A stretch of 60,550 bases of DNA, from positions 1-60,550 of the forward strand of contig JAQBNL010000083.1 in the NCBI GenBank assembly GCA_028288585.1, read 5' to 3'. Origin of the DNA: Chitinophagaceae bacterium (GTDB lineage Bacteria > Bacteroidota > Bacteroidia > Chitinophagales > Chitinophagaceae). The notes under the pieces were generated by a model. The model was not told where the DNA came from and ran no database searches. It was given only the letters and a program-made list of their open reading frames with translations. The position numbers were made by a program, and so were the translations under genes. This document shows, in pieces, positions 28,857-59,637 of this stretch (within the stretch, counting starts at the first letter, position 1; each line of letters starts with the position of its first letter).

Positions 28857-28877
28857 CCTACATTTGAAATTAAAAAT

Positions 28878-31817: not shown

Positions 31818-31859
31818 ACACTAATTGTAAAATGCCACGTAAATTTTGTTCACAGTAAT

Positions 31860-32717
31860 TTATATTGACATCGCATTATTATAATATAGAGCGGCGGCAC
31901 CAAGTATACCGCTGTTTTCCAATTCTGAAATTTCAATTTGTAAATTATCTGCCACCTTTTTGTATGGAAAGGTTTTAATACGTTGCCACATAGTTTTATT
32001 AAAATATTTCCACGCATGCCTCACAGAACCACCCAGGATAATTATTTCAGGGTCATAAGCGCCCATAATCAATTTTATTGCATTGCCAAGATGAGCGCCC
32101 ATTTCTTCATACATTTTTATAGCGGCAGCATCTCCTTTTTTTGCATTTGCAAAAACAGTTTCGCCGTCAATTCCATATACATTTTTAAAAAATTGCCCGC
32201 TGGCATAATACTCACAATATTTATCAAGATAATCTGCTATTCCAAACTCGCCGGCACCGCAATTTTTCCCGGAGTATAATTTTTTATTAAGAACAATTCC
32301 TGATCCCAGCCCTGTTCCAATAGTAAGCCCGATCATAGATTGATAATCTTTACCTTTTCCAAAATAATATTCACCCAGCGCAAAACAGTTTGCATCATTA
32401 TTAATAAGAACAGGAACTTTATAACGCTCTTCCATCCGTTGCTGTAAAGGCACTGACTTCCATGAAGGAATGTTTATCAGGTCAAATACAATTCCTTCAT
32501 CTGCATCTACCAGGCCCGGAACGCCGATGCCAATTGCTTTTATTGAAGTGGTAATTAATTTATCTGCCAGGGTAAACAGGTCTTCCAAAACTTCTTCAAC
32601 AGAACCTTTGGAGGTTATCTTTTGAGACAGGAGAGATGATAATTTATTGTTGCTTACCAGGCCGGCACGAACACTGGTGCCGCCCATATCAATTCCTATA
32701 ACAGTTTCATTGTCCAT
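31860..32717 (-). CDS. ROK-family sugar kinase
   Basis: The 285-residue protein opens with the ROK phosphate motif VIGIDMGGTSVRAGLV and has LIGIGVPGLVD-like, NDANCFALGEYYFGKG and GLTIGTGLGSGIVLN segments, so the ATP- and sugar-binding sites are present. The usual ROK zinc motif (CxCGxxGCxE) is missing: the matching place reads GIADYLDKYCEYYAS, with one cysteine. It lacks a helix-turn-helix, so it is a kinase and not a NagC-type repressor. With its neighbours it probably phosphorylates GlcNAc, glucosamine or a related hexose. It is the middle gene of the operon, 21 bp after the deaminase-like gene. Confidence 0.85.
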   Translation of the reverse strand: MDNETVIGIDMGGTSVRAGLVSNNKLSSLLSQKITSKGSVEEVLEDLFTLADKLITTSIKAIGIGVPGLVDADEGIVFDLINIPSWKSVPLQQRMEERYKVPVLINNDANCFALGEYYFGKGKDYQSMIGLTIGTGLGSGIVLNKKLYSGKNCGAGEFGIADYLDKYCEYYASGQFFKNVYGIDGETVFANAKKGDAAAIKMYEEMGAHLGNAIKLIMGAYDPEIIILGGSVRHAWKYFNKTMWQRIKTFPYKKVADNLQIEISELENSGILGAAALYYNNAMSI

Positions 32718-32738
32718 ACCCTTTTATTAACATTGAAG

Positions 32739-33479
32739 TTAATATTTTGTTGCACCATTTATCAATTGTGCAGCTTCGGCATCAAGATAAATTTTAAATG
32801 AAGGGTGCCGGCGCAATAAAGTTGCTGGCAATTGTTCAGAAATTTCTTCATTAATTAATCTTCTCACTATTTCTGCTTTGTGTGCGCCATTCACCACCAG
32901 GATAATGTGGCGGGCTTCCATAAGCGTGGCTAATCCTAATGTAATTCCCTGTGAAATTTGTTTCGCCTCTTTAAAATATTTTTGCCCCGCCTGCTGTGTT
33001 ACAGGATCAATGGCAGCAACATGAGAACGCAATGCAGGTGAAGTGCCCGGCTCATTCATTGCCACATGGCCATTTGTTCCAAGCCCAACAATAGCTACAT
33101 GAATACCTCCATGTTCGGCAATAAATTTTTCAGTTTTTATACATTCCAATTCCAGGTTTTTTGCTCTTCCATCAAAAAAGCAAATCCTTTCTTTCTTTAT
33201 CTGCAAAGGATTAAACAATTGATTATCCAGGTGAAACCTGCAACTCCCCTCATCGCTGCCATTCATCCCTGCCCATTCATCCAGGCCAACAAAATACCAG
33301 TCTGAAGTATCCAGCTGGTTTTTATTGAATTTATCAACAAACGCTTTGTATAAACCTGCAGGGCTATCGCCGGATGCAGGGCATAGCAGGGGACTTTTAA
33401 TGTAGTGCATTAATTGTATCACAGCATCCGCGGATTGTTTGGATACGGCTTGATATGTGTCGCCAATAAAAATTTCCAT
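32739..33479 (-). CDS. Glucosamine-6-phosphate deaminase-like protein
   Basis: The 246-residue protein belongs to the NagB/6-phosphogluconolactonase-like fold. NagB-type marks are the phosphate loop ASGDSPAGLYKAF, WYFVGLDEWAGM with catalytic Asp/Glu, and GLGTNGHVAMNEPG, which corresponds to the GxGxDGHIAFNEP motif of NagB. The change of Asp-Gly-His to Asn-Gly-His in that motif is also seen in divergent members such as galactosamine-6-phosphate isomerases. It would convert an amino-sugar 6-phosphate to a keto-sugar phosphate plus ammonia. It is the first gene of the three-gene amino-sugar operon, divergent from the GMC gene. No deacetylase (NagA) lies nearby. Confidence 0.82.
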   Translation of the reverse strand: MEIFIGDTYQAVSKQSADAVIQLMHYIKSPLLCPASGDSPAGLYKAFVDKFNKNQLDTSDWYFVGLDEWAGMNGSDEGSCRFHLDNQLFNPLQIKKERICFFDGRAKNLELECIKTEKFIAEHGGIHVAIVGLGTNGHVAMNEPGTSPALRSHVAAIDPVTQQAGQKYFKEAKQISQGITLGLATLMEARHIILVVNGAHKAEIVRRLINEEISEQLPATLLRRHPSFKIYLDAEAAQLINGATKY

Positions 33480-33671: not shown

Positions 33672-35405
33672 ATGCCGGGAGATTCTTTGAGTGCAAATAT
33701 CCTTCTTAAAGGAGTAAAAGAAAATACATTTGATGCTATTGTGATCGGCTCTGGTATTAGTGGCGGATGGGCAGTTAAAGAACTTTGTGATCATGGTATA
33801 AAAACTTTGTTACTGGAAAGAGGAAGAAATGTAGAGCATAACAAAGATTATCCAACAGCAACAAAAAAACCCTGGGAGTTCAAGCACCGCGGACAAATGA
33901 CAAAAGAATTTCTGCAGGAGAATCCTTTAATAAGTAAGGCGGCTGGATTTGCAGAAGACACAGCGCATTTTTTTATAAAAGATAAAGACCATCCATATAT
34001 ACAGGAAAAGCCTTTCGACTGGATACGTGGTTATCAGGTTGGCGGCAAGTCATTAACATGGGGACGTGCCTGCCAGCGATGGAGCAAATATGAATTTACT
34101 GCACCGGCACGCTATGGATATGGAATTGAGTGGCCTGTAACCTATGATGAAATGGCGCCATGGTATTCGCATGTGGAAACATTTATCGGCGTTTGCGGAA
34201 CACGTGATGGAATAGATGCAATGCCTGATGGAGAGTTTCTTCCTCCTTTCGATTTCAACTGTGCAGAGGCTCATATCCAGCAATCAATAAGCGCTAATTA
34301 TAAAGACAGGCATTTGGTTCATGCACGATGGGCACAATTAACCGCACCAAAAGAAATTCATTTTCAACAGGGAAGAGCTAAATGCCAGGCACGGAATCTT
34401 TGTATGCGTGGCTGCCCGTTCGGAGGATATTTCAGTTCTGTTTCTTCTACTATACCCTGGGCAAAAAATACAGGTAACCTTACAGTTCGTCCATTCTCTG
34501 TTGTGCATTCAATAATATATGATGAGCAAAAACAAAAAGCTGTTGGCGTAAGAGTGATTGATACTAACACTAAACAGTCAACTGATTATTTTGCAAAAAT
34601 TATTTTCGTTAATGCGGCTGCCTTAAACAGTAATCTCATTTTACTTAATTCAACTTCCAATCGTTTTCCAAATGGGCTGGGAAATGATAATGGCTTACTG
34701 GGAAAATACGTTGCTCATCATAATTACAGGGCATCTGTAGGAGGACAGATAGATGGAATGGAAGACAAATATTTCTATGGAAAAAATCCTACTGAGCCTA
34801 TATTAGCTAACTACCGGAATTTATACAAACAGGACACAGACTATATCGGGGGGTTCACCACTTTTATGGGTGCTTACCGCGGAGGTATCAATGAAGATTC
34901 ATTGCCGGAAGCGATAGGCGGTGATTACAAAGATGCTTCGGCAGAACCTGGGGGCTGGGGTACCTATATGTATATGCAGGGAGAAACAATTCCTAAAGAA
35001 ACAAATCATGTAAGGTTAAGCAAAGATCAAAAAGATCAATGGGGCATCCCCCTGTTAATAACATCCGTTGGTTATGATGACAATAGTGAAAAAATGATAA
35101 AGGATTTTTTAACACAGAGTGCCGAGATGCTGGATAAGGCGGGAGTAAAAAATATCCAGCAACACGACAACCACCAGGCACCCGGGCTTGATATTCATGA
35201 AATGGGCGGATGCCGGATGGGTAAGGACCCAAAGACATCTTTATTAAATAGTCATAACCAAATGCACCATTGCAAAAATGTATTTGTAACCGATGGCGCC
35301 TGCATGACCAGCACAGGCAATCAAAGTCCTTCTATTCTTTATATGGCATTAACTGCACGGGCTGCTAATTATGCTGTTGATGAAATGAAAAAGGGAAATT
35401 TGTAA
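33672..35405 (+). CDS. GMC-family FAD dehydrogenase with predicted Fe-S cluster
   Basis: The ATG at 33672 places the FAD motif near the N-terminus as usual (577 residues). It has the Rossmann FAD site AIVIGSGISGGWAVKEL, the GYQVGGKSLTWGRACQRWS flavin loop and the C-terminal HEMGGCRMGKDP...VTDGACMTSTGNQSPSILYMAL with the catalytic His region. Cysteines C238-x5-C244-x3-C248 (CQARNLCMRGC) match the 3Fe-4S ligand spacing known from bacterial FAD glucose dehydrogenases. This points to a dehydrogenase passing electrons to a cytochrome, not an oxidase. No signal peptide is seen. The usual small hitch-hiker subunit (gluconate 2-dehydrogenase subunit 3 family) is not beside it. It heads the glycan operon and may oxidise glycosides at C3. 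Confidence 0.87.
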   Translation: MPGDSLSANILLKGVKENTFDAIVIGSGISGGWAVKELCDHGIKTLLLERGRNVEHNKDYPTATKKPWEFKHRGQMTKEFLQENPLISKAAGFAEDTAHFFIKDKDHPYIQEKPFDWIRGYQVGGKSLTWGRACQRWSKYEFTAPARYGYGIEWPVTYDEMAPWYSHVETFIGVCGTRDGIDAMPDGEFLPPFDFNCAEAHIQQSISANYKDRHLVHARWAQLTAPKEIHFQQGRAKCQARNLCMRGCPFGGYFSSVSSTIPWAKNTGNLTVRPFSVVHSIIYDEQKQKAVGVRVIDTNTKQSTDYFAKIIFVNAAALNSNLILLNSTSNRFPNGLGNDNGLLGKYVAHHNYRASVGGQIDGMEDKYFYGKNPTEPILANYRNLYKQDTDYIGGFTTFMGAYRGGINEDSLPEAIGGDYKDASAEPGGWGTYMYMQGETIPKETNHVRLSKDQKDQWGIPLLITSVGYDDNSEKMIKDFLTQSAEMLDKAGVKNIQQHDNHQAPGLDIHEMGGCRMGKDPKTSLLNSHNQMHHCKNVFVTDGACMTSTGNQSPSILYMALTARAANYAVDEMKKGNL

Positions 35406-35422
35406 AAAGCATATTGTATTCA

Positions 35423-36166
35423 ATGGAAAAAATAAATACACTTTCAATATCTGTGCTCATGGCAATATTTATTTTATCAGCATGCAATTCTTCTGATAAA
35501 AAAACAACGGGTACAGATAATACAAAAGAAAAAAATAATGGATGGGAATTATTATTTGATGGCACAACAACAACCGGATGGCATACTTATGGAAAAGACA
35601 GTATAGGGAAAGCGTGGAAGGCAGAAGATAGTACACTGCATTTAGATGCATCAAAAGAAGGCTGGCAGACAAAAGATGGCGGAGATATTGTTACCGACAA
35701 TGAATATGAAAACTTTGACCTGAAGCTGGAATGGAAAATTTCAGAAGGAGAAAATAGCGGCATTATGTTTTATGTACATGAAGACACTTCGAAATATAAA
35801 TATGCATGGGAAAGTGGCCCTGAAATCCAGGTATGTGATAATGAAAAAAACGAAGATGGAAAAATAGATAAAGCAAGAGCCGGAGACCTGTACGATCTTG
35901 TCGCTTCATCATCTCAACAATTTGTAAAACCGGCAGGGCAATGGAACCAGGTAGAAATAATAGCTGATAAAGGAAAACTAAATCTTTACATGAATAGTCA
36001 GCATGTTTTATCCACAACATTATGGGATGACACATGGAAAAAATTAATTGCCGCTACAAAGTTTAAAACCATGCCCGGCTTTGGAACTTTTAAAAAAGGA
36101 AAAATTGCTTTGCAGGATCATGGCGCTGATGTTTGGTTCAGAAATATAAAAATTAAAAAGCTTTAA
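35423..36166 (+). CDS. DUF1080 (3-keto-disaccharide hydrolase-type) lipoprotein
   Basis: The ATG at 35423 gives a lipoprotein signal with LSAC (Cys21) and 247 residues. The mature chain is one concanavalin-like DUF1080 domain: GWELLFDGTTTTGWHTYG at the start, then DIVTDNEYENFDLKLEWKIS, NSGIMFYVHED, and a closing GKIALQDHGADVWFRNIKIK. This domain is common in Bacteroidota and Planctomycetota, and some members cleave 3-keto-glycosides made by GMC or Gfo/Idh oxidoreductases. It is encoded 17 bp after the GMC dehydrogenase and 6 bp before GH3, so it is part of one operon. The cleaving role here is an inference from family and context. Confidence 0.88.
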   Translation: MEKINTLSISVLMAIFILSACNSSDKKTTGTDNTKEKNNGWELLFDGTTTTGWHTYGKDSIGKAWKAEDSTLHLDASKEGWQTKDGGDIVTDNEYENFDLKLEWKISEGENSGIMFYVHEDTSKYKYAWESGPEIQVCDNEKNEDGKIDKARAGDLYDLVASSSQQFVKPAGQWNQVEIIADKGKLNLYMNSQHVLSTTLWDDTWKKLIAATKFKTMPGFGTFKKGKIALQDHGADVWFRNIKIKKL

Positions 36167-36172
36167 TCTCTT

Positions 36173-38416
36173 ATGTACAGACTTACATTTTTATTCCGTT
36201 CGTGTTTTTTATTTTTTGCAACATTGCAAACTGTTGCAGGTTTTTCGCAAAAGAAAACCATTGATCAAAAAATTGATTCCGTTTTAAAACTGATGACACT
36301 TGATGAAAAAGTCGGGCAGATGAACCAGTACTCAGGGCCATGGGCACATACCGGGCCCATAACTGAGCAGGGAGATTTTTTACAACAGGTAAAAGGAGGC
36401 AAACTGGGTTCTTTATTAAATATAAATGGCGTGCAGCATACAAGGGAACTTCAGCAAATTGCCATGCAATCAAGGTTAAAAATTCCATTGCTGTTCGGGC
36501 AGGATGTTATTCATGGATACAGAACTACATTTCCTATTCCATTGGCAGAAGCGGCCAGCTGGGATTTACAGGCAATAGAATTATCTGCAAGAATTGCTGC
36601 AACAGAAGCAGCAGCTTCGGGTATTCACTGGACGTTTGCGCCCATGGTTGACATTGCCCGTGATCCACGCTGGGGAAGAGTAATGGAAGGTGCCGGCGAA
36701 GACACATACCTCGGGTCGCAAATCGCAGGAGCAAGAGTGAGAGGCTTCCAGGGAAAGGGGTTGGGTAATATTGATGCAGTAATGGCATGTGCCAAACATT
36801 TTGCTGCATACGGCGCAGCCATCGGCGGCAGAGATTATAATTCAGTTGATATGAGTGAGCGAACACTCTGGGAATTTTATTTACCTCCTTTTAAAGCAGC
36901 GGCAGATGCAGGCGCTGCAACTTTTATGAACAGCTTTAATGATCTTAATGGTATACCGGCTACGGCTAACAGTTACCTGCAAAAAGATATTTTAAAAGGC
37001 AAATGGAAGTTCAAAGGTTTTATTGTCAGCGACTGGGGATCGGTGGGAGAAATGGTTAAGCATGGTTATGTAAAAAATAATTATGAAGCAGCACTGGCAG
37101 CGGTTTTAGCAGGTAATGATATGGATATGGAAAGCCGTGCTTACAGGAACCATTTGGCACAACTGGTAAAAGAAAATAAAGTTCCTGTAGCAGTAGTTAA
37201 TGAGGCCGTAAAAAGAATTCTAAAGAAAAAATTTGAATTGGGATTATTTGACGACCCGTATAAATTCAGTAATGCGCAAAGAGAACAGCAGGAATTAAAT
37301 AATCCTGAGCATAAAAAAATTGCAAGAGATATATCCAAAAAAAGCATTGTATTGTTAAAGAATGAAAATAATCTTCTGCCCTTATCAAAAAATATTAAAA
37401 CAATTGCGGTTATTGGTCCATTGGCAAAATCAAAAATGGAAATGCTTGGCTTCTGGTCAACAGGATGGCCGGACAGTAATTATATAGTTTCTCAATATGA
37501 GGGATTACAAAACAAACTGGGTACAGGCGCCAAATTATTATATGCCCGCGGATGTGGAATTGAAGATTCCTCACGTAACGGGTTTGATGAAGCCATTGCA
37601 ATAGCACAACAGGCAGATGTTGTTATTATAAGCGTTGGTGAAAAAAGAGATATGAGCGGAGAAGCTAAAAGCCGCTCCAATATTCATTTGCCGGGCGTGC
37701 AGGAAGAATTAATTAAAGCAATTTACAGCACTGGCAAACCGGTTGTTGTTTTAATAAGTGCAGGGCGGCCGCTCATTTTTAACTGGACGGCAGACCATGT
37801 TCAGTCTATACTATATACATGGTGGCTGGGTGATGAAGCCGGTAATGCAATTGCCGATGTGTTGTTTGGAGATTATAATCCTTCGGGTAAATTACCTATG
37901 ACATTTCCTTTAACGGAAGGGCAACTTCCTATTTATTATAACCATTTTAATACGGGCCGCCCTGCTGAAAATGACAGGGACCGCTTTTACCGCTCTGCCT
38001 ATATTGATCTTTCTATTCACCCAAAATTTCCTTTTGGTTATGGTCTTAGTTATACAAATTTCAAATACGATAATTTAAAATTAAGTTCCGCAACAATTAA
38101 AGATGGCAAAACTATTGATGTATCATTTACATTAACCAACACAGGCAAATACAGCGGCGAAGAAGTAGTACAATTATACCTGAGAGATGAAGTGGCTTCC
38201 GTGGTTCGGCCTGTAAAAGAATTAAAAGATTTTAGAAAAGTTTTCTTACAGCCGGGCGAAAGCAAACAGGTTACGTTTATAATTAACAAAGAAAAACTTT
38301 CATTCTATAATCAAAAGTTGCAATGGATAACAGAGCCTGGCAAATTTGATCTTATGATTGGAAGTTCTTCTGATGATATAAGATTAAAGCAAAGTTTTGA
38401 ATTGAATGGGAATTAA
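36173..38416 (+). CDS. GH3 beta-glucosidase (BglX-like)
   Basis: The 747-residue exported enzyme has a signal peptide (ending TVAGFSQ), the GH3 barrel, the alpha/beta sandwich and a C-terminal fibronectin-like domain (about 640-745, VVQLYLRDEVASVVRPVKELKDF). The nucleophile is Asp287 in FIVSDWGSV. Substrate-loop marks are FAPMVDIARDPRWGR and KHFAAYG. It should release glucose from the non-reducing end of beta-glucans or oligosaccharides in the periplasm. Together with GH16, two GH30 and three GH144-like enzymes in the region, a beta-glucan-derived oligosaccharide is the likely substrate; linkage (1,2, 1,3 or 1,6) is not readable. It lies 6 bp after the DUF1080 gene. Confidence 0.94.
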   Translation: MYRLTFLFRSCFLFFATLQTVAGFSQKKTIDQKIDSVLKLMTLDEKVGQMNQYSGPWAHTGPITEQGDFLQQVKGGKLGSLLNINGVQHTRELQQIAMQSRLKIPLLFGQDVIHGYRTTFPIPLAEAASWDLQAIELSARIAATEAAASGIHWTFAPMVDIARDPRWGRVMEGAGEDTYLGSQIAGARVRGFQGKGLGNIDAVMACAKHFAAYGAAIGGRDYNSVDMSERTLWEFYLPPFKAAADAGAATFMNSFNDLNGIPATANSYLQKDILKGKWKFKGFIVSDWGSVGEMVKHGYVKNNYEAALAAVLAGNDMDMESRAYRNHLAQLVKENKVPVAVVNEAVKRILKKKFELGLFDDPYKFSNAQREQQELNNPEHKKIARDISKKSIVLLKNENNLLPLSKNIKTIAVIGPLAKSKMEMLGFWSTGWPDSNYIVSQYEGLQNKLGTGAKLLYARGCGIEDSSRNGFDEAIAIAQQADVVIISVGEKRDMSGEAKSRSNIHLPGVQEELIKAIYSTGKPVVVLISAGRPLIFNWTADHVQSILYTWWLGDEAGNAIADVLFGDYNPSGKLPMTFPLTEGQLPIYYNHFNTGRPAENDRDRFYRSAYIDLSIHPKFPFGYGLSYTNFKYDNLKLSSATIKDGKTIDVSFTLTNTGKYSGEEVVQLYLRDEVASVVRPVKELKDFRKVFLQPGESKQVTFIINKEKLSFYNQKLQWITEPGKFDLMIGSSSDDIRLKQSFELNGN

Positions 38417-38509: not shown

Positions 38510-39967
38510 ATGATACATAAAAAATTTACAGTTATTGCCTCTGTATACTGCATGATCGCATTATCATTTTGCTGTTCCAAACATACATCCAATACAGGAG
38601 GCGGAACAACTCCCCCACCACCAACACCACCAGTAGTACTTACCAATGATGTTGATTTTTGGCTAACCTACCAATCCTCATTATTACAAAAGCAAACAGC
38701 AATACTTTCTTTTGGCACAGAAACCAATACATACTCTTTTATTGATGTAGATACTACACAATTACTTCAAACCGTTGATGGGTTTGGTTATACGCTTACA
38801 GGCGGCAGCGCTTATGTTATCAACAAATTAAGCTCGGTTAATAAAGCAAACTTATTGCAGGAATTATTTGGCAGCGGTAGTAACTCAATTGGCATTAGTT
38901 ATTTGCGCATTAGTATTGGCGCATCAGATCTAAATGCTACTGTTTTCAGTTATGATGATATGCCGGCGGGGCAAACAGATATTAATCTTGCCAATTTTAG
39001 TCTTAATCCTGACAAAACAGATGTTATTCCTTTACTAAAAGAAATTTTAGCAATCAATCCTTCCATTAAGATATTAGCCTGTCCGTGGTCTCCCCCGGTA
39101 TGGATGAAAGATAATGGAAGCTCAATTGGAGGAAGCTTGCAAACGCAATATTATAATGTATATGCGCAATACTTTGTAAAGTACATTCAGCAGATGAAGG
39201 CCGAAGGAATTACGATTGATGCAATCACACCTCAAAATGAACCGCTTCATCCCGGCAATAATCCCAGCCTGCTTATGACTGCTTTGCAACAGGCAGACTT
39301 TATTAAGAATAGTCTTGGCCCTGCTTTCCAGGCTACCGGTATAGCTACAAAAATTATTGCATACGATCATAATTGCGATCGTCCTGATTATCCACTTACT
39401 GTTTTAGCCGATCCGGCTGCAAGACAGTTTGTAAATGGGTCCGCATTTCATTTGTATGCAGGAGATATCAGCGCTCTTACACAGGTTCATAATGCCTTTC
39501 CTGATAAGCATGTATATTTTACAGAACAATACACCGCATCCAACGGTGACTTTGCCGGTGATCTTAAATGGCATTTAAAAAACGTTGTCATTGGTTCTAT
39601 GCGTAACTGGAGCCGCAATGCATTGGAATGGAATTTAGCAAACGATGAATCTTTTAATCCTCACACACCTGGTGGATGCAATACCTGTAAAGGAGCTTTA
39701 ACTATAACCAGCACAGGAGCAGTTATCCGTAATGTGGCTTATTATATTATTGCACATGCATCCAAATTTGTTCCGGCCGGTTCTGTTCGCATACAAAGTA
39801 ATATAACAGGTAGCCTGCAGAATGTAGCTTTTAAAACGCCTGCCGGAAAAAAAGTATTGATCGTAGAAAATGATGGAACCACATCAGCTTTTTTTAATAT
39901 CAGGTTTAATAATAAATGGGTAAGCACAGTATTGGATGGCGGGGCAGTTGGCACTTATGTGTGGTAA
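38510..39967 (+). CDS. GH30 family lipoprotein glycosidase
   Basis: The 485-residue protein has a lipoprotein signal (SFCC, Cys21 or 22) and a Gly/Pro-rich tether (GGGTTPPPPTPPVVL) before the catalytic domain. GH30 features are QTVDGFGYTLTGGSAYVI, ILACPWSPPVWMKDNG, the acid/base Glu244 in TPQNEPL and the nucleophile Glu339 in YFTEQYT, with a closing beta-domain. GH30 enzymes of this type act on beta-1,6- or other beta-glucans, or on glucosylceramide. The tether suggests surface display. It is the fourth gene of the GMC-DUF1080-GH3 run and is followed by GH16 and a second GH30. Confidence 0.9.
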   Translation: MIHKKFTVIASVYCMIALSFCCSKHTSNTGGGTTPPPPTPPVVLTNDVDFWLTYQSSLLQKQTAILSFGTETNTYSFIDVDTTQLLQTVDGFGYTLTGGSAYVINKLSSVNKANLLQELFGSGSNSIGISYLRISIGASDLNATVFSYDDMPAGQTDINLANFSLNPDKTDVIPLLKEILAINPSIKILACPWSPPVWMKDNGSSIGGSLQTQYYNVYAQYFVKYIQQMKAEGITIDAITPQNEPLHPGNNPSLLMTALQQADFIKNSLGPAFQATGIATKIIAYDHNCDRPDYPLTVLADPAARQFVNGSAFHLYAGDISALTQVHNAFPDKHVYFTEQYTASNGDFAGDLKWHLKNVVIGSMRNWSRNALEWNLANDESFNPHTPGGCNTCKGALTITSTGAVIRNVAYYIIAHASKFVPAGSVRIQSNITGSLQNVAFKTPAGKKVLIVENDGTTSAFFNIRFNNKWVSTVLDGGAVGTYVW

Positions 39968-39989
39968 AGAATTGAATCAAATAAATTTT

Positions 39990-40805
39990 ATGAATAGAAT
40001 AATACAGGTAGCAATAATAATGTTGCTACCTGTATTTGTTTTATCTCAAAACAAAAAAACAGCAAAACTAAAACAAAGAAGCTTTTCTTCTGTTCCTTAT
40101 TGGCGGGAAGAATTTAATTATAATGGATTACCCGATACAACTAAGTGGAGTTATGAAACCGGTCGTTCTGCAAATAATGAGATCGAATATTATACAAATG
40201 CAAAAAATGCAATGGTAAGAAACGGGGTTTTAGTAATAGCCGCAAAAAAAGAAAAGATAGATGGAATGGACTACTCATCGGCAAGGATGGTAACAAATGG
40301 CAAGGCAGATTTTTTGTATGGACGTTTTGAAATAAGAGCTAAACTCCCTACGGGCAGGGGCTTGTGGCCTGCTATATGGATGATGCCTGTAAAAGAAAAT
40401 TATGGAGGATGGCCTGCATCAGGTGAGATAGATATTATGGAGCAGGTTGGCTATGCACCTGATACGGTTCATATAAGTACTCACACCCATGAACAGAACT
40501 GGATGAAAAATAATGGAGTTACTTCAGTAGCTTTTGTAAAAACAGCAACGGCTGCATTTCACATTTACCGGATCGATTGGACACCTGGAGGGATAGAAGG
40601 TTTTATTGATGGCAAAAAAATTTTTCAGCATCTTAACAATACTAAAGGCCATGGCTACTGGCCCTTTGATAAACCATTTTTTTTAATATTAAATATTGCT
40701 GTTGGTGGCGACTGGGGTGGAAAGTATGGAGTGGATGATACTATTTTTCCTAAGCAAATGGAAGTGGATTATATTCGTGTTTATAAAATGAAAGATAAAA
40801 AATGA
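39990..40805 (+). CDS. GH16 beta-glucanase
   Basis: Using the ATG at 39990 (an upstream in-frame TTG/ATG would overlap the GH30 gene) gives a 271-residue secreted enzyme with signal MNRIIQVAIIMLLPVFVLSQ. The active-site motif of the laminarinase/lichenase type is complete: Glu146-I-D148-I-M-Glu151 in GEIDIMEQVG. The chain also shows WREEFNYNGLPDTTKWSYETG at the front and FFLILNIAVGGDWGGKYG at the end. It should cut beta-1,3- or mixed-linked glucans internally. Its end overlaps the second GH30 start by 4 bp. A perfect 14-bp hairpin lies inside its signal-peptide codons. Confidence 0.92.
   Translation: MNRIIQVAIIMLLPVFVLSQNKKTAKLKQRSFSSVPYWREEFNYNGLPDTTKWSYETGRSANNEIEYYTNAKNAMVRNGVLVIAAKKEKIDGMDYSSARMVTNGKADFLYGRFEIRAKLPTGRGLWPAIWMMPVKENYGGWPASGEIDIMEQVGYAPDTVHISTHTHEQNWMKNNGVTSVAFVKTATAAFHIYRIDWTPGGIEGFIDGKKIFQHLNNTKGHGYWPFDKPFFLILNIAVGGDWGGKYGVDDTIFPKQMEVDYIRVYKMKDKK
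40001..40036 (+). repeat. Perfect 14-bp inverted repeat inside the GH16 signal-peptide codons
   Basis: AATACAGGTAGCAA and TTGCTACCTGTATT flank an 8-nt loop, starting 11 nt after the first base of the start codon. In mRNA this is a strong hairpin just past the initiation site, followed by a T-rich stretch. It could tune translation or end some transcripts from the upstream genes. Confidence 0.75.
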
Positions 40806-42232
40806 AAGATTATATGAAAACTATTTTAACAGCCGCTATCATTTTGCTATTATCAAATGGTGTGCAGTCACAGAAAAAAATTATTGTTTATACAACTGCA
40901 GAAAATACAAACTATCGTTTAACATCAACAGATACTTTGCAGTTCACTTATATGGGCCAGCCAAAAGAAACCCAGCCCTGTGTATTTATTGACCCTACAA
41001 AAACATTTCAAACATTTATAGGCATTGGCGGGGCATTAACTGATGCATCAGCAGAAACTTTTGCCATGTTGCCTAAAGAAAAACAAAAAGAAATATTACA
41101 GGCATACTATGATCCAAAAAAAGGAATTGGTTATACACTGGCAAGAACCAATATACACAGCTGCGATTTTTCCAGCGGTAGCTATACTTATGTTGCGGAT
41201 GGCGATAAAGAATTAAAAACTTTTAGTGTTGCCCACGATGAGCAATATCGTATTCCTTTTATTAAGCAGGCTATTGCCGCCGCTGGCGGAAAGTTAACTT
41301 TATTTATAAGCCCATGGAGCCCGCCGGCATGGATGAAAGATAATAATGATATGCTGCATGGAGGAAAACTAAAACCCGAATTTTACCAGTCATGGGCAAA
41401 TTATTATGTAAAGTTTATCAGGGCTTATGCAAAGGAAGGGATCCCGGTATGGGGGCTTACCATCCAAAATGAACCCATGGCTACCCAAAAATGGGAATCG
41501 TGTGTTTTTACTGCAGAAGAAGAAAGAGATTTTCTGAAAAAATATTTAGGGCCAACCTTAAATAAAGAAGGATTAAGTGATAAAAAAATAATTGCATGGG
41601 ATCATAACCGCGACCTGGCATACCAACGGGCATCAACAATATTCAGTGACCCTGAAGCCGCCAAATATGCATGGGGGTTAGGCTTTCACTGGTATGAAGA
41701 TTGGAGCGGAGGCGACCAGGTATATGACAATATAAAAAGAGTACAGGAAAGTTTCCCTGCAAAAAATATTTTATTTACTGAAGGCTGTAATGGCCCATTC
41801 AACATGAAACAGATAAATGACTGGAATTGGGGAGAACGCTATGGCCGCTCCATGATTAATGATTTTAATAACGGCACCGTTGGATGGACAGACTGGAATG
41901 TATTGCTAGATGAAATTGGCGGTCCTAATCATGTACAAAATTATTGCTTCGCACCAATTCATGCAGATACCAAAACAGGCAAGGTATATTATATGAATGC
42001 ATATTATTACATTGGTCATTTCTCAAAATTTATCAGGCCCGGTGCAAAAAGAATTGTAAGCTCCTCCAGCAGAAGCCCTTTGCTAAGTACAGCTTTTAAA
42101 AATAAAGATGGAAGTATTGTAGTGGTAATAATGAATCAGGGTAATAAAAATCTTCCCTATTTTTTATGGAATAATGGCAAAGCTGCGCAGGTAACAAGTT
42201 TGGCTCATTCTATAGCTACTTTGGTGTTATAA
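40802..42232 (+). CDS. GH30 beta-glycosidase (second copy)
   Basis: The 476-residue enzyme starts at an ATG overlapping the GH16 stop (ATGA), with a signal peptide ending NGVQSQ; a second ATG at 40814 is also possible. GH30 marks are QTFIGIGGALTDASAETF, LFISPWSPPAWMKDN, acid/base Glu224 in IQNEPMA and nucleophile Glu327 in LFTEGCNG. It is closer to the glucosylceramidase/endo-beta-1,6-glucanase branch than the first GH30 and is not a recent duplicate. It has no lipobox, so it is probably periplasmic. It is the last gene before a very strong terminator. Confidence 0.92.
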   Translation: MKDYMKTILTAAIILLLSNGVQSQKKIIVYTTAENTNYRLTSTDTLQFTYMGQPKETQPCVFIDPTKTFQTFIGIGGALTDASAETFAMLPKEKQKEILQAYYDPKKGIGYTLARTNIHSCDFSSGSYTYVADGDKELKTFSVAHDEQYRIPFIKQAIAAAGGKLTLFISPWSPPAWMKDNNDMLHGGKLKPEFYQSWANYYVKFIRAYAKEGIPVWGLTIQNEPMATQKWESCVFTAEEERDFLKKYLGPTLNKEGLSDKKIIAWDHNRDLAYQRASTIFSDPEAAKYAWGLGFHWYEDWSGGDQVYDNIKRVQESFPAKNILFTEGCNGPFNMKQINDWNWGERYGRSMINDFNNGTVGWTDWNVLLDEIGGPNHVQNYCFAPIHADTKTGKVYYMNAYYYIGHFSKFIRPGAKRIVSSSSRSPLLSTAFKNKDGSIVVVIMNQGNKNLPYFLWNNGKAAQVTSLAHSIATLVL

Positions 42233-47194: not shown

Positions 47195-48034
47195 ATGAAA
47201 TTATTTAATAATCTATCAAAATATATCAGCTTAGGATTACTCTTTATGTTGGTTTTTGTTAGTTGTCAAAAAATGCATAGACCTGCCTTGGGAGATTACC
47301 CTAAGGATGCTAACCCGCCAGGCGGTCCATTAAAATTTTACGTGGCATTTGATGGTACCACTTCCAATCCTTTAATGAATGCAGTAGACAGCGTTAGAGC
47401 AAAATTTCCCAGTTCTAATCCACTTGCTTCCATTGATGGAGTTCGCGGAAAAGGATTTCAGGGCGCAGACGATAAAGTTATACTGTATTCATCGGCGAAT
47501 GATTTCGCAGCTTCAACCAGTTTCAGTATTTCATTCTGGATGAAAAATACAGCCCAGGCCGGCCGCACTGAATTTTTGTTTTCATTAGTAGATGAAACGT
47601 ATGGCTGGAGTAATAGCGCTGCTTTTGTACTGGTTGAAAACCAAACGGCAACAAATACTACCATGAAGTTTGGATTGATGGACCAATGGCTTGAAGGTAC
47701 ATTTAATAAACCTCTTTTTGACGGAAGCTGGCACCACATGGTGTATGTATATGATGAAACAACTTCCAAGATGACATATTATTTTGATGGTGCCGTTGTT
47801 ACAGGGATGACCACAACACAAACGAATGTTACAAATGGAGGTAGCCCAAGAGGCAAGATAGATTTTACAAAAGCCAGCAGTTTGATTTTAGCAGGCTGGA
47901 ATAAACATGGGAATGCTAAAGGCCCTACTGACGATTGGATAAAAACATATAAAGGGGCTATGGATCAATTCAGGTTGTATGGAAAGGCATTAACTGCCTC
48001 CGAAGTACAGGCGTTGTATAATAGCAAATTGTAA
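47195..48034 (+). CDS. LamG-domain surface lipoprotein
   Basis: The 279-residue protein has a lipobox VSC (Cys24) and one concanavalin/LamG-type jelly roll with FSISFWMKN near the middle, SWHHMVYVYDETTSKMTYYFDG and a closing GAMDQFRLYGKALTASEVQALY. It sits third in the SusC-SusD unit, where a surface glycan-binding protein (SusE/SusF position) is usually encoded. It has no catalytic motif. It probably binds the same polysaccharide. A terminator follows 24 bp past the stop. Confidence 0.88.
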   Translation: MKLFNNLSKYISLGLLFMLVFVSCQKMHRPALGDYPKDANPPGGPLKFYVAFDGTTSNPLMNAVDSVRAKFPSSNPLASIDGVRGKGFQGADDKVILYSSANDFAASTSFSISFWMKNTAQAGRTEFLFSLVDETYGWSNSAAFVLVENQTATNTTMKFGLMDQWLEGTFNKPLFDGSWHHMVYVYDETTSKMTYYFDGAVVTGMTTTQTNVTNGGSPRGKIDFTKASSLILAGWNKHGNAKGPTDDWIKTYKGAMDQFRLYGKALTASEVQALYNSKL

Positions 48035-48139: not shown

Positions 48140-49399
48140 ATGAGAATTATTAAAAAAATCAGGCCCTCTACAATAATTATTATCCTTATTGCTTCATGCA
48201 TTTTTTTATTAACAAGATGCATAGGAGATTCCGGGAACTCAGAAGAAAAAGCAACTGCCAGGGATGAATTTAAAAAATATACCGGGTCAAAGGTTTGTGC
48301 AAGTTGTCATAAAGATATTTATGATAAACATATCCTTACTGAACATTACCTCACATTAGCGCCACCCACCGAAAAAAACATCTTAGGAAGTTTTGAAAAA
48401 GGCAAGAATGTATTTGCCTTTGATGATGTTACTAATATTACCATGGAGAAAAGAGATAGCGGCTTTTTCCAGGTAGAATATAATAATGGGAATGAAATAA
48501 GAAAAGGCAGGTTTGATATGGTAGTTGGTTCAGGCAGAAAAGGGCAGAGTTATTTAACCTGGGTAAACAACCGGCTTGTACAACTACCGATAACCTATTT
48601 TTCCCCGGCAGCTCAATGGAGCAATAGCCCGGGATACCCTCCCAATAAAATTGTTTTTAACAGGCCCATTACATCAAGGTGTTTAGAATGCCATAGCACC
48701 TATTTTGAAAAGATATCTGACCCTGCAATTGAACTTGAACAATTCGATCATCATAAAATAATATATGCCGTGGATTGTGAAAAATGTCACGGCCCTGGCG
48801 CTATGCATGTTGATTTTCAATCTAAAAACCCAGGCATAAAAGAAGCAAAATTTATTGTTAACCCACGCAAACTTACCAGAGAACAGGTTTTGGATTTATG
48901 TACTTTATGCCATGGCGGTGGCCAGTTGGCAAAAATAAAACCATCATTCCAGTTCCATGCGGGAGATTCACTTTCCAAATATTTTATACGAAATAAGGCT
49001 GCGCTTAATGCTTCCAATATAGATGTTCACGGAAATCAAATGGGACTATTGTCGTTGAGTAAATGTTTTATCATGAGTAATATGACGTGTATCAACTGTC
49101 ATAATACACATCAAAATGAAAATGGAAAGGTTGCCTTATTTTCTCAACGCTGCATGACCTGCCATACTGAAGGACATGTAAAATTATGTAAGATGACTGC
49201 CGAGATAGGCCCTGCAATAACCCAAAATTGTATTGATTGCCATATGCCAAAACAACCATCTCATGCTGTATCAGTTTTTTTACAGGGATCACCTGCACCC
49301 ACACCTGCTTTGATGCGCACACATTTTATAAAAATTTATCCTGAGGAAACAAAAAAAGTTTTAGCTTATCTTAAAGGCCCAATCAAGAAAAAATTATAA
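48140..49399 (+). CDS. Seven-heme c-type cytochrome, membrane- or lipid-anchored
   Basis: The 419-residue protein has a hydrophobic N-terminus (about 10-26) with possible lipobox IASC, so it is exported and anchored. Seven CxxCH heme sites are visible, starting at Cys53, 181, 213, 254, 317, 338 and 364. The spacing resembles the cytochrome c554/multiheme group found next to CRTAC1-like proteins in Bacteroidota and Acidobacteriota. It should transfer electrons in the periplasm or at the surface. Its stop is followed immediately (0 bp) by the FG-GAP/ASPIC gene. Electron donor and acceptor are unknown; the GMC dehydrogenase 12 kb upstream is a candidate donor only by inference. Confidence 0.92.
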   Translation: MRIIKKIRPSTIIIILIASCIFLLTRCIGDSGNSEEKATARDEFKKYTGSKVCASCHKDIYDKHILTEHYLTLAPPTEKNILGSFEKGKNVFAFDDVTNITMEKRDSGFFQVEYNNGNEIRKGRFDMVVGSGRKGQSYLTWVNNRLVQLPITYFSPAAQWSNSPGYPPNKIVFNRPITSRCLECHSTYFEKISDPAIELEQFDHHKIIYAVDCEKCHGPGAMHVDFQSKNPGIKEAKFIVNPRKLTREQVLDLCTLCHGGGQLAKIKPSFQFHAGDSLSKYFIRNKAALNASNIDVHGNQMGLLSLSKCFIMSNMTCINCHNTHQNENGKVALFSQRCMTCHTEGHVKLCKMTAEIGPAITQNCIDCHMPKQPSHAVSVFLQGSPAPTPALMRTHFIKIYPEETKKVLAYLKGPIKKKL

Positions 49400-52300
49400 A
49401 TGAATAAATTAAAAATTAATACCCTCTTACTATCCATATCTGCATTGATTTTTATATCCTGTAACAGGCCGGATAAATTGTTTACTTCTTTATCCTCTTC
49501 TGAAACAAATATTACATTTACCAATAAGCCAATAGAGAAAAATTTATTCAGCATACTGTATTATTTATATTATTATAATGGCGGAGGTGTAGCAACGGGA
49601 GATATCAATAACGATGGGTTACCAGATATTTATTTCACTGCTAATAGTAAAGGGAATAATAAACTGTATTTAAACAAAGGCAATTTTAAATTTGAAGATA
49701 TAACGGATAAAGCCGGCGTGGGAGGTGTTTCGGATTGGTGTACAGGAGCTACCATTGCAGATATAAATGGAGATGGATTTTTAGATATTTATGTTTCTAC
49801 TGTAAGTAACAGGTATGGGTTAACTGGCCACAATGAATTATACATTAATAATGGTAACGGAACCTTTACAGAAAAATCTGCTCAATATGGATTGAACACG
49901 TCCTGCTTTACCACGCAAGCCGCTTTTTTCGACTTTGATCATGATGGCGACCTGGATTGTTATATCCTGAATCAATCTCACCAGGCACATGCTAATGTTA
50001 TTGATACCAGTAACAGGCGTAAATATGATTCTCTTTCAGGAGACAGGTTATACCGCAATGATATTAGCACCACGGGGAAATTTACCGATGTATCTGCTAC
50101 TGCAGGTATTTATCAAAGTAAACTTGGTTATGGATTGGGCATTGCAGTTGCTGATATAAATAATGATGGATGGGATGATATATATATTGGTAACGATTTT
50201 CATGAAAACGATTACTACTATATAAACAATGGCAATGGCACGTTTACAGAAAGTGGCGCCAAACATTTTAATCATTACAGCAGGTTTAGTATGGGAAATG
50301 ATGTTGCGGATTATAATAATGACGGGCAACTGGATGTAATTACAGTTGATATGTTGCCGCCTGATGAAAGAAATTTAAAAACATACGGCAGCGATGAAAA
50401 CGCGGATATTTATAAAGTAAAATTAGAAATGCAGGGTTATCAAAACCAATATTCAAAAAATTGTTTGCAACGTAATAACGGTAATGGCAGCAGCTTTAGC
50501 GAAACAAGTTTAATAAGCGAGGTAGCGGCCACAGACTGGAGCTGGTGCCCTTTATTTGCAGATTTTGATAATGATGGCAATAAAGATTTATTCATTTCAA
50601 GTGGCATAGTAAAGCGGCCTGTAGACCTTGATTATGTCAGGTTTGTTTCATCCCTAAAAGGAAAAGGAATGGATAGAACTGATAAGTATGATAATATCGC
50701 GATAGAGGCTATGCCCGAAGGCAGTTCCCACCCTTTTTTATTTAAAGGAGATGGGAATCTTTCCTTTAAAGATATGAGTATTGAATGGGGCACAGGCAAA
50801 ATGAAAGGCTTTTATAATGGAGCTGCGTATGCTGATTTAGACAATGATGGAAATCTTGACCTGGTAATAAATTGCCTGAATGCACCTGCAGTAATTTTAA
50901 AAAATAATTCACCAAAGAAAAATTATATCTCTATCTCTTTCAGGGATGATAGTTTAAATACGTTTGGTATAGGTGCCAAAGCATATCTATTTTCAAAAGG
51001 AAAAATGCAATACCAGCAATTAATGGCTACCCGGGGTTTTGAATCTTCTTCGGATCTGCGTTTGCATTTTGGATTAGATTCTATAAATACCATAGATAGC
51101 TTATTAATTATTTGGCCTAATCAAAAATTCCAGGTAATAAAAAGTGTTACTGCTAATAAACAATTAACGGTATACCAAAAAAATGCTGCAGGTATCTTTA
51201 GTTATAGTTCACTGGTTAAACCTTCACCTGTATTGTTTACAAATATCAGCCACGATATAAATGTAAACTGGAAACATAAAGAGAATGATTTTTTCGATTA
51301 CAATGTGCAGTATTTAATTCCTCATGCAGAGTCAACCCGCGGTCCAAAAATTACAGTAGCAGATGTGAACAAAGACGGCCTGGATGATTTCTATGTCTGC
51401 GGTGCATCGGGGCAGCAGGGAGCATTAATGATGCAAACCAAAGATGGGAAATTTATAACCACTGTACTTAATATAAAACACTGGATAAATATTACAGAAG
51501 AAGTGGATGCTTTATTTTTTGATGCTAACAACGATACCTATCCTGATTTATATGTGGTAAGTGGTGGAAATATATATGAAGATGGAAATCCTTGCCTCTC
51601 CGACCATCTGTACCTTAATGATGGCAAAGGAAATTTCTTTGAATCAGGAAGTGCCTTCCCCCAGTTACTTAAAAATAAATCCTGCGTAAGTGCTGCGGAT
51701 ATTGATAATGACGGGGACATTGATTTGTTTGTGGGCGGCCTCGCAGATGCTAAGCAATATGGAATACCACAGCCCTCCTATTTATTGTTAAACGATGGAA
51801 AGGGAAATTTTACACATCCCGATGCATCAGTGATAAAGCTGGATAATTTGGGAATAGTTACCAGTTCTTCTTTTGCCGATATTAATAAAGATGGCTGGCA
51901 GGATTTAATTGTAACCGGGGAATGGATGCCGGTAAAAATATTTATTAATAACAAAGGAAAATATACTGAAACTGATATTCCGCATTCAACCGGTCTTTGG
52001 CAAACTATATATTCTACTGATGTTAATGGTGATGGCTTTATTGATTTTCTGGCAGGTAACTGGGGACAGAATTGTAAATTGGTTGCAGGCAAAACCGGGC
52101 CTGTAAAGCTTTACATAAAAGATTTTGATAACAATGGTTCTATTGAACAGATAATGTGCTATACCCTCAATGGTGAAGAATATACATTTCTTGCAAAAGA
52201 TGAGTTGGAAAGAGCATTACCTGTATTAAAAAAAGCTTATCTGAAATACGATGAAGTGGCAGGCAAAACAGTACAATATATGTTTTACGATTTGTTTAAA

Positions 52301-52675
52301 GACTATAAAGAACTGCAGGCAGAAACCCTCAGCTCATCCTGTTTTATTAATGACGGCAAAGGAAATTTTACAAGAAGAGATTTACCACAGGAATTGCAAT
52401 TGGCCCCGCTATTTGCATTTCAACGGTTAGGAAATACAAATTCATTTTTTGCCGGGGGAAATTTCTTTGGTGTAATTCCTTATGAAGGACGGTATGATGC
52501 TTCGTCATTATTATATTTTAATACAGATAATAAGGGTACTGTTAATCAAACAAAAATTTTGGATATAAAAGGAGAAGTAAGAGATCTTAAATGGTTGCAT
52601 ACTGGTAAGTATGGAGATATTTTAGTGGGTGCAAAAAATAATGACAGTCTGGTTTTTTATGGATTGAAAAAATAA
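49400..52675 (+). CDS. Giant FG-GAP/VCBS repeat lipoprotein with ASPIC/UnbV domain
   Basis: The 1091-residue lipoprotein (SC21) contains at least 13 calcium-loop motifs of type D-x-[DN]-x-D-G (for example DINNDGLPD, DFDHDGDLD, DLDNDGNLD, DIDNDGDID, DVNGDGFID). They lie in two blocks (about 60-470 and 640-910). Between them is an ASPIC/UnbV domain (about 500-600, with GIGAKAYLFSKGKM and SSDLRLHFGLDSI). This is the CRTAC1-like layout: beta-propeller blades that bind calcium and may bind glycan or protein. It is coupled to the multiheme cytochrome with no intergenic base. No catalytic motif is visible. Confidence 0.92.
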   Translation: MNKLKINTLLLSISALIFISCNRPDKLFTSLSSSETNITFTNKPIEKNLFSILYYLYYYNGGGVATGDINNDGLPDIYFTANSKGNNKLYLNKGNFKFEDITDKAGVGGVSDWCTGATIADINGDGFLDIYVSTVSNRYGLTGHNELYINNGNGTFTEKSAQYGLNTSCFTTQAAFFDFDHDGDLDCYILNQSHQAHANVIDTSNRRKYDSLSGDRLYRNDISTTGKFTDVSATAGIYQSKLGYGLGIAVADINNDGWDDIYIGNDFHENDYYYINNGNGTFTESGAKHFNHYSRFSMGNDVADYNNDGQLDVITVDMLPPDERNLKTYGSDENADIYKVKLEMQGYQNQYSKNCLQRNNGNGSSFSETSLISEVAATDWSWCPLFADFDNDGNKDLFISSGIVKRPVDLDYVRFVSSLKGKGMDRTDKYDNIAIEAMPEGSSHPFLFKGDGNLSFKDMSIEWGTGKMKGFYNGAAYADLDNDGNLDLVINCLNAPAVILKNNSPKKNYISISFRDDSLNTFGIGAKAYLFSKGKMQYQQLMATRGFESSSDLRLHFGLDSINTIDSLLIIWPNQKFQVIKSVTANKQLTVYQKNAAGIFSYSSLVKPSPVLFTNISHDINVNWKHKENDFFDYNVQYLIPHAESTRGPKITVADVNKDGLDDFYVCGASGQQGALMMQTKDGKFITTVLNIKHWINITEEVDALFFDANNDTYPDLYVVSGGNIYEDGNPCLSDHLYLNDGKGNFFESGSAFPQLLKNKSCVSAADIDNDGDIDLFVGGLADAKQYGIPQPSYLLLNDGKGNFTHPDASVIKLDNLGIVTSSSFADINKDGWQDLIVTGEWMPVKIFINNKGKYTETDIPHSTGLWQTIYSTDVNGDGFIDFLAGNWGQNCKLVAGKTGPVKLYIKDFDNNGSIEQIMCYTLNGEEYTFLAKDELERALPVLKKAYLKYDEVAGKTVQYMFYDLFKDYKELQAETLSSSCFINDGKGNFTRRDLPQELQLAPLFAFQRLGNTNSFFAGGNFFGVIPYEGRYDASSLLYFNTDNKGTVNQTKILDIKGEVRDLKWLHTGKYGDILVGAKNNDSLVFYGLKK

Positions 52676-58467: not shown

Positions 58468-59637
58468 ATGAGCAACTCAATATCACGACAAAAATTTTTG
58501 CAGCAAACAGCTATGGCCGGTGCTGCAGTATTGCTTTCTTCACTTGAGAGTTTTGCATTAACTAAAGCAGATAAAAAATTAAAGGTGGCAGTTATTGGCT
58601 GCGGAAGTGTAAGCAACCGTTACCTGCCACAACTGCAATCATCAAAACTGATAGAAGTAGTAAGCCTTTGTGATATCAAATATGACAGGGCTTTGGCGCA
58701 AAACAAACAGTACAATGTAAATGCAAAAACATATCCTAACATTCATGCAATGTTACAAGGTGTTCCATTCGATATGATGGTCACGCTGACAGATATGCAG
58801 GTACATGGCGAGTTAAATAAAATAGCATTGCTGGCAGGCAAACATGTATGGAGTGAAAAACCGATGGCTAATACTTATGCTGAAGGAAAGGCTTTGCTGG
58901 ATTTAGCTAAGAGTAAAAAGCTGAGATTATGGGGAGCGCCGGCAGTGGTTAATAGCCCGCAGTTTGCCTTCATGAGTAAAGCGATCCAGGAAGGAAAGCT
59001 CGGCCGTGTTGCAAGTGCCCATGGACAGTATGGACATACAGGACCAACATGGTCTGCTTTTTTTTATGAAAAAGGTGGAGGCAGTATGCCGGACCTTGGT
59101 GTATATAATATGGCTACGCTAACGGGTTTGCTTGGCCCTGCAAGATCAGTAATGGCTATGCTGAGTATTGTAAAACCCGAACGTACTGTTGATGATAAAG
59201 GAAAAATAAAAGTGGAAGCCGAAGACAATGCACATATTTTATTGGAGCATGATAAAAATATCATCAGCCATGTAATGTGTGGCTTTAATTTTTTTGATAC
59301 GCATGGGCATGAAGCAGGCGCCCAAACCTTGCATTCTATCCAGGTTTTTGGAGATGCAGGAAACATGCGGTTGATCGGCTATGATTGGGAAACCAATGGA
59401 GTAGTACTCGATACAGCAGAGACCCAACCACCAAAATTAATGAGCACCGACAAAGGCGGTTATGAATGGCAGGAAGGCGCAAGGGTTACAGGCGAAAGTA
59501 TTGTAAAGGGCATTGAGCCAAGGATTAATGTAGAGCATGCCTTGCATGTGCTGGAAATAATGGAAGCTGCAAGAAGATCATCAGCAACAGGTATGAAAGT
59601 GAAATTAAAAAGTAAATTTCCCTGGCCCATGGTCTGA
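58468..59637 (+). CDS. Gfo/Idh/MocA-family oxidoreductase with N-terminal export-like sequence
   Basis: The 389-residue protein has an N-terminal SRQKFLQQTAMAGAAVLLSS stretch that resembles a twin-arginine signal but with only one arginine. A Rossmann fold follows with GCGSVSNRYLP (about 44-54) and the EKPMA motif of the family near residue 131. These enzymes oxidise or reduce sugars with NAD(P), and exported members in Bacteroidota often keep a tightly bound cofactor. Together with the GMC dehydrogenase and DUF1080 protein it could handle 3-keto sugars; this is inferred. It precedes the PhyH-family gene by 61 bp. Confidence 0.88.
   Translation: MSNSISRQKFLQQTAMAGAAVLLSSLESFALTKADKKLKVAVIGCGSVSNRYLPQLQSSKLIEVVSLCDIKYDRALAQNKQYNVNAKTYPNIHAMLQGVPFDMMVTLTDMQVHGELNKIALLAGKHVWSEKPMANTYAEGKALLDLAKSKKLRLWGAPAVVNSPQFAFMSKAIQEGKLGRVASAHGQYGHTGPTWSAFFYEKGGGSMPDLGVYNMATLTGLLGPARSVMAMLSIVKPERTVDDKGKIKVEAEDNAHILLEHDKNIISHVMCGFNFFDTHGHEAGAQTLHSIQVFGDAGNMRLIGYDWETNGVVLDTAETQPPKLMSTDKGGYEWQEGARVTGESIVKGIEPRINVEHALHVLEIMEAARRSSATGMKVKLKSKFPWPMV

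Follow-up and report, generated by a model that had tools for sequence, protein, structure and literature searches.

A GMC dehydrogenase and a DUF1080 lipoprotein of the 3-keto-glycoside pathway kind in a beta-glucan utilisation locus of a Chitinophagaceae bacterium

The stretch of DNA analysed here, referred to as the window, comprises 60,550 nucleotides and represents one entire contig (JAQBNL010000083.1) of a Chitinophagaceae assembly of 3.30 Mb in 98 contigs with a completeness of 98.64%. It contains a gene encoding a GMC dehydrogenase that is directly followed by genes encoding a DUF1080 lipoprotein and a GH3 beta-glucosidase. The GMC and DUF1080 proteins are of types that occur in the established 3-keto-glycoside pathway, and comparative data support their assignment to one pathway. 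We see about an even chance that the module is a rearranged, stripped-down part of this bacterial pathway that a beta-glucan utilisation locus has recruited. Partner proteins are missing from the window genome, which weakens the case for a working oxidise-cleave-reduce route.

The dehydrogenase, the DUF1080 protein and their gene unit

The module consists of three genes:
33672..35405, plus strand, GMC oxidoreductase, LacA/GlycDH-like, assigned by Pfam domains and homologue alignment
35423..36166, plus strand, DUF1080 lipoprotein (PF06439, 3-keto-disaccharide hydrolase), assigned by Pfam and structure relatives
36173..38416, plus strand, GH3 beta-glucosidase, BglX-like, 832.9 bits against an NCBIfam cut-off of 666

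The open reading frame of the dehydrogenase (33594-35405) opens with TTG, and its probable start is the ATG at 33672, where the alignments of the relatives begin. The deduced protein matches GMC_oxred_N (2.6e-10) and GMC_oxred_C (3.9e-18) and carries the FAD motif GSGISGG at residue 26, His509 and the Fe-S motif C238-x5-C244-x3-C248, which is encoded at 34383-34415. All three cysteines are present in each of the 154 aligned GMC homologues, and the claim of an earlier note on this DNA, that the gene encodes a GMC dehydrogenase with a C-x5-C-x3-C motif, was borne out. The histidine of the IHEMGG motif is kept in 153 homologues, the remaining one being gapped there. The fold domains, the FAD motif and the Fe-S cysteines of the GMC component of a glycoside 3-dehydrogenase complex are thus all present, and no signal peptide is visible by eye. 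The closest solved relatives are the large subunit of fructose dehydrogenase, which has the same cysteine spacing in the alignment, and a glucose dehydrogenase; LacA and the glycoside 3-dehydrogenase GlycDH of Agrobacterium are presumably GMC proteins as well. In a phylogenetic tree the window enzyme was grouped with those of Flavisolibacter ginsengisoli and locus L052 (support 0.97). GMC matches also occur in open frames of 1190-1316 residues (G113:C1:1790328, G184:C15:90075 and G081:C121:4328) that possibly represent fusions, and in eight loci of the family (L061-L065 and L068-L070) three to seven GMC paralogues stand in a row, with a single gene for the small subunit PF13618 per locus.

The DUF1080 gene starts at 35414 (TTG) or 35423 (ATG) and ends at 36166. 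The family PF06439 ('3keto-disac_hyd') covers the deduced protein at 4.3e-46 over positions 1-187 of the 187 profile positions, a lipobox-like LSAC sequence with Cys21 was recognised by eye, and the solved relatives include 8rr2, titled 3-keto-disaccharide hydrolase domain-containing protein. The histidine of the QDHG motif (His233), which may have a catalytic role, is kept in the window protein and in 46 of 51 relatives, as is Glu134 in the window protein. At this histidine site 8rr2 has His and PDB entry 9fbe has Asn, the latter probably being an active-site mutant. At position 143 the window protein has Asn (codon at 35849), whereas 40 of the 51 relatives have His; inactivation of the protein through Asn143 was considered and is weakened, since four relatives carry the same Asn. 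The DUF1080 genes of loci L194 and L196 were missed in this comparison, probably because the open reading frame filter retains the longer frame wherever two overlap and may thus drop genes in GC-rich records; the L194 copy matches PF06439 at 3e-44. The only other DUF1080 gene found in the window genome (G000:C48:20045-21400) encodes two DUF1080 domains in one protein of 451 residues.

According to the earlier note, the GMC gene is followed by DUF1080, GH3, GH30, GH16 and GH30 genes in one tight operon. This order is correct. The spacers comprise 8 or 17 bases between GMC and DUF1080, depending on the DUF1080 start, and 6 bases between DUF1080 and GH3, in comparison with 93 bases between GH3 and the first GH30 gene, so that the tight unit is restricted to GMC-DUF1080-GH3.

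Co-occurrence, conserved neighbourhoods and the surrounding locus

The distribution of the module was analysed in 195 genomes of the family with cut-offs of E<=1e-20 for GMC, E<=0.001 for PF13618 and E<=1e-30 for the DUF1080 type. GMC was detected in 136 genomes, PF13618 in 135 and the DUF1080 type in 132. GMC and PF13618 occur jointly in 134 genomes; GMC without PF13618 is limited to the window genome and G043, and PF13618 without GMC was seen as a weak match in G169. All 132 genomes with the DUF1080 type carry GMC and 130 carry PF13618, while four GMC genomes are devoid of DUF1080 (Fisher P about 5e-46 and 1e-45 for co-occurrence, without correction for kinship). Moreover, the DUF1080 gene is located <=20 kb from the PF13618 gene in 67 of the 99 genomes with both printed, roughly 2% being expected. 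The 3-keto clusters of the family contain GMC, PF13618, two PF01261 barrel types and a Gfo/Idh.

With respect to gene order, the arrangement GMC (86%), DUF1080 (66%) and GH3 (76%) is found again in F. ginsengisoli, where NagB-like, ROK and Gfo/Idh genes lie on the opposite strand. In G045, a member of the window's genus, GMC and GH3 adjoin GH30, GH144, ASPIC, SusD and ROK/NagB-like genes, with DUF1080 elsewhere in the genome, and Lacibacter cauensis carries SusC, SusD, LamG, ASPIC, two GH30, two GH144, Gfo/Idh (83%), DoxX and GMC (67%) genes in a single run. Further arrangements are GH123-GMC-GH3 (G035) and GMC-GH3 (L057 and L066), and in L088, L092 and L132 a relative of the window GH144 or Gfo/Idh proteins, or of both, is encoded near GMC. 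The 154 distinct GMC contexts were picked for likeness to the query, only 92 of them are flanked by 5 kb of sequence on either side, and neighbouring genes were counted only where similar to window proteins; in this set GH3 is located within 1.2 kb of GMC in five contexts, one of these being a distant GH3. A chance adjacency of GMC and DUF1080 is unlikely, because it is repeated in F. ginsengisoli and because the two types co-occur throughout the family. Since the gene order is the same in F. ginsengisoli and related GMC genes lie beside relatives of the glucan locus in G045 and L. cauensis, it is plausible that an oxidative arm was recruited into a hydrolytic glucan locus.

The further genes of this locus (33672-60526) and of its upstream flank are as follows:
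38510..39967, plus strand, GH30 (first), Pfam domain
39936..40805, plus strand, GH16, Pfam; real start probably 39993 (by eye)
40802..42232, plus strand, GH30 (second), Pfam domain
42464-45607, plus strand, SusC, Pfam domain
45626-47140, plus strand, SusD, Pfam domain
47195..48034, plus strand, Laminin_G_3 (concanavalin-like) protein, Pfam; possibly a surface glycan-binding protein
48140..49399, plus strand, c-type cytochrome with seven CxxCH motifs, domain and motif; candidate electron acceptor
49400..52675, plus strand, FG-GAP/UnbV_ASPIC protein, domain match
52684-54363, 54369-55730 and 55715-57175, plus strand, three PF10091 proteins, domain match
58468..59637, plus strand, Gfo/Idh/MocA oxidoreductase, domains; best PDB relatives DgpA1 and DgpA
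32739..33479, minus strand, NagB-like protein, divergent to GMC, domain match
31860..32717, minus strand, ROK sugar kinase, domain match
28854-30692, plus strand, GH123 protein, domain match

A fatty acid hydroxylase and a PhyH protein are also encoded on the plus strand of the locus. The SusC-SusD pair, separated from the second GH30 gene by 231 bases, together with the glycoside hydrolases identifies the region as a polysaccharide utilisation locus, in which we take the PF10091 proteins to be GH144 endo-beta-1,2-glucanases. The earlier note had placed the Gfo/Idh enzyme in the same locus, and it does lie there; it is located outside the tight run, 22.3 kb downstream of DUF1080 and past a terminator-like hairpin at 48058-48089 that was recognised by consensus match. 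The seven-haem cytochrome is encoded inside the locus, and nothing ties it to GMC. The cytochrome-ASPIC pair (48140-52675) are neighbours also in G045, with the cytochrome on the other strand, and the ASPIC protein of Lacibacter is retained without a cytochrome at that place. An inverted repeat of 16 pairs followed by a T-rich stretch (40001-40036) lies just past the probable GH16 start within the signal-peptide codons and possibly forms an attenuator hairpin. A promoter scan yielded 42 sites, fewer than the mean of 51.1 in shuffled sequences, and was not used.

Upstream of GMC, the minus-strand block 30747-33479 encodes an APH-family protein, the ROK kinase and the NagB-like protein. The GH123, APH-family, ROK and NagB-like genes (28854-33479) recur partly beside GMC in several genera, which suggests that they constitute an amino-sugar side branch.

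Missing partners and alternative explanations

Several observations weigh against the assignment of the module to a functional 3-keto-glycoside pathway. The PF13618 small subunit, a protein of the twin-arginine kind that is probably the Tat carrier of the complex, gave no match in the window assembly even at E<=10, a threshold at which no divergent small subunit came to light either; in the window's genus PF13618 is present in 16 of 20 genomes, and in 10 of 11 among the good ones. The four PF01261 barrels of the window genome are unlike the barrels found in the 3-keto clusters of the family (best E 0.013), both types of which match PF01261, so that the search was able to detect them. The window genome is also devoid of a close match to the Gfo/Idh of these clusters (best 26% identity). 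The window's own Gfo/Idh, a DgpA-related protein with a signal-like N-terminus (by eye), remained far below the NCBIfam cut-offs, with 52.7 against 750 bits for BT_2158_fam and 38.9 against 650 bits for BT_2159_fam. As a consequence of the missing small subunit, TIM barrels and usual Gfo/Idh, the export of GMC, its electron outlet and the hydration and reduction of the product are unaccounted for in the assembly. Additionally, DUF1080 lies within 20 bp of GMC in only two of the 154 contexts and within 1 kb in five, the window DUF1080 protein differs from the family consensus in 7 of the 64 conserved columns, the median being 3 and its rank 43 of 52, and the genomes are related, so that the co-occurrence P-values are too small. 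In Pedobacter, according to PMC9007349, a lactose phenotype was seen for the dehydrogenase and for none of the ten DUF1080 genes.

Loss of Tat export as the cause of the PF13618 loss was rejected, as TatC is present in the window genome. At L036:100-840, a twin-arginine protein of 246 residues without a Pfam family match is encoded adjoining the PF13618 gene, and related proteins occur at several GMC clusters.

It might be that the organism possesses the small subunit and the remaining pathway and that these are missing only from the assembly, in which case the window would contain a normal 3-keto locus. The assembly is indeed fragmented (98 contigs, 98.6% complete), and G043, the only other genome of the family with GMC and without PF13618, is 83% complete in about 650 contigs. 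Genus members having PF13618, however, show one to six matches, and a second close GMC as well as the two TIM-barrel types and the Gfo/Idh of the family's clusters are missing from the window genome too, so that either a single genuine loss or several gaps would have to be assumed. We regard this explanation as unlikely.

The missing components could also mean that GMC is the remnant of a lost pathway and that the DUF1080 protein of this locus simply cleaves glucans or binds glycans. A DUF1080 endo-xanthanase/lichenase is cited in PMC9007349, and both the incomplete pathway and the divergent columns of the DUF1080 protein are in line with this view. Against it, the GMC gene is intact and shows little non-synonymous change at an unaltered rate, its product sharing 86% identity with the F. 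ginsengisoli enzyme; the distribution of the DUF1080 type in the family follows that of GMC and PF13618, and the QDHG histidine and Glu134 are kept. The numbers of window-only versus F. ginsengisoli-only changes were 28 v 29, 29 v 25, 22 v 24 and 19 v 35 for GMC with four outgroups, 48 v 56 and 53 v 70 for GH3, and 15 v 19, 24 v 14 and 18 v 18 for DUF1080 with three outgroups, the count of 24 v 14 speaking against an intact module; these figures span the whole branch, and a recent loss would escape them. The non-synonymous differences amounted to 0.089 for GMC, and the synonymous sites are saturated, which limits the conclusion to purifying selection in general. GMC moreover retains 133 of the 134 columns conserved among 70 homologues encoded adjacent to PF13618. 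A decaying module is not favoured by these balanced GMC and GH3 rates and the inconsistent DUF1080 counts, there is no clear sign of decay in GMC and DUF1080, and the remnant explanation appears very improbable.

A third explanation assigns GMC to a cytosolic subtype that is independent of PF13618 and acts in sugar-phosphate metabolism with the NagB-like, ROK, APH-family and GH123 proteins, its place before DUF1080 being partly a matter of co-regulation. Among the contexts flanked by 5 kb on either side, a NagB-like gene lies within 7 kb of GMC in 9 of 39 contexts without PF13618 in range and in none of 53 with it; over all 154 contexts the respective numbers are 10 of 84 and 0 of 70. The absence of PF13618 from the window genome is in line with these counts, as is a Haliscomenobacter plasmid with SDR, SIS, phosphatase, Gfo/Idh and GMC genes, for which an incomplete gene table lists no small subunit within 6 kb. 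A similar distribution was found for GH3 within 7 kb of GMC (14 of 39 contexts without PF13618 against 2 of 53 with it; 17 of 84 against 2 of 70 in all), whereas no clear contrast was seen for ROK (7 of 39 against 3 of 53) and DUF1080 (3 of 39 against 9 of 53). The contexts are related by descent, however, the nearly complete set of columns conserved in PF13618-adjacent homologues gives no hint of an altered partner surface, and the five of nine other NagB-linked contexts that were checked (G104, G049, G045, G112 and G034) all belong to genomes with PF13618 elsewhere, which could act in trans. The NagB-like contrast hints that some GMC enzymes form a group whose role is different, and it is only a lead, because the five checkable genomes have PF13618 elsewhere; as an account of the window enzyme, the cytosolic subtype seems doubtful. 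In the stretches L092:3121-9992 and L193:677-6005, which read as a sugar-phosphate cluster, GMC has no small-subunit gene listed nearby and lies by Gfo/Idh, SDR, ROK, SIS, MetE-like, NagB-like, metallo-hydrolase and DoxX-type genes.

A related and highly doubtful idea is that a LacA-type GMC, representing a subtype associated with NagB-like, ROK and GH3 genes, works without a PF13618 carrier and is wired together with DUF1080 into the beta-glucan locus, where the same fragments would be attacked by hydrolysis and, by means of an as yet undescribed electron outlet, by C3 oxidation.

Proposed route and comparison with known systems

If the module is a recruited part of the 3-keto-glycoside pathway, the protein families suggest the following scheme, in which all chemical steps, the substrate and the location are deduced from family membership. 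The SusCD proteins would import the pieces that the GH16, GH30 and GH144 enzymes would release from the glucan. The FAD- and Fe-S-containing GMC enzyme may oxidise C3 of the terminal glucose in short beta-glucosides, and the putatively periplasmic DUF1080 lipoprotein may cleave the resulting 3-keto glycoside, while GH3 would attack these sugars by direct hydrolysis. The probably exported Gfo/Idh, encoded 22 kb away, might interconvert 3-keto and 3-hydroxy sugars. In the earlier note, DUF1080 and Gfo/Idh proteins were linked to the cleavage of glycosides after C3 oxidation, and the same glucan was suggested to be broken down both by hydrolysis and by an oxidise-cleave-reduce route. The data support GMC and DUF1080 as proteins of the 3-keto-glycoside kinds and give no such support for the Gfo/Idh; the placement in the pathway and the locus stands, whereas the working route is weakened by the missing PF13618, TIM barrels and usual Gfo/Idh. 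The GMC-DUF1080-GH3 order, whose conservation in related genomes the note had named as a check, was recovered in one other genus, that of F. ginsengisoli, and direct GMC-DUF1080 adjacency is rare.

The plasmid of Xanthomonas sacchari (L194) resembles the window in that GMC and a PF06439 protein are encoded in one run with a Gfo/Idh close by; it differs in the position of PF13618 between GMC and DUF1080, in the presence of a TIM barrel, isomerases and a cytochrome c, and in the lack of glucan hydrolases in the listed stretch. The 3-keto route of Bacteroides of the BT2156-2159 type reportedly uses DUF1080 and Gfo/Idh enzymes, the dehydrogenase being a Gfo/Idh protein; DUF1080 and Gfo/Idh are thus shared with the window, whose Gfo/Idh misses the respective NCBIfam cut-offs. 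In the study by Price and colleagues (PMC9007349), LacABC and DUF1080 are linked in lactose use by Caulobacter, and a dehydrogenase with a DUF1080 partner nearby is common to that system, Bacteroidota included, and the window. Unlike the LacABC system described there, the window module is set in a beta-glucan locus with SusCD, GH3, GH16, GH30 and GH144 and has no PF13618 in the assembly. Since a small subunit was not detected, we do not assign the module to the LacABC complex and class it as a variant of the known pathway. The GlycDH-AtOGE-AtHYD-Gfo operon of Agrobacterium (PMC10628242) performs oxidation, elimination, hydration and reduction, and shares with the window a glycoside 3-dehydrogenase as entry enzyme and a Gfo oxidoreductase in the scheme; cleavage is accomplished there by the eliminase AtOGE, whereas the window has DUF1080 and its genome is devoid of matching TIM barrels. 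In a literature search, with most subscription journals outside its reach, these two reports came closest to describing a GMC enzyme within a glucan locus.

A genome that contains GMC and DUF1080 and in which no small subunit was seen represents a natural test of the necessity of this subunit. If the module works, Bacteroidota of this sort could use a single locus to degrade beta-glucans by two kinds of chemistry; this would alter the reading of such loci and tie a widespread 3-keto pathway to a polysaccharide.

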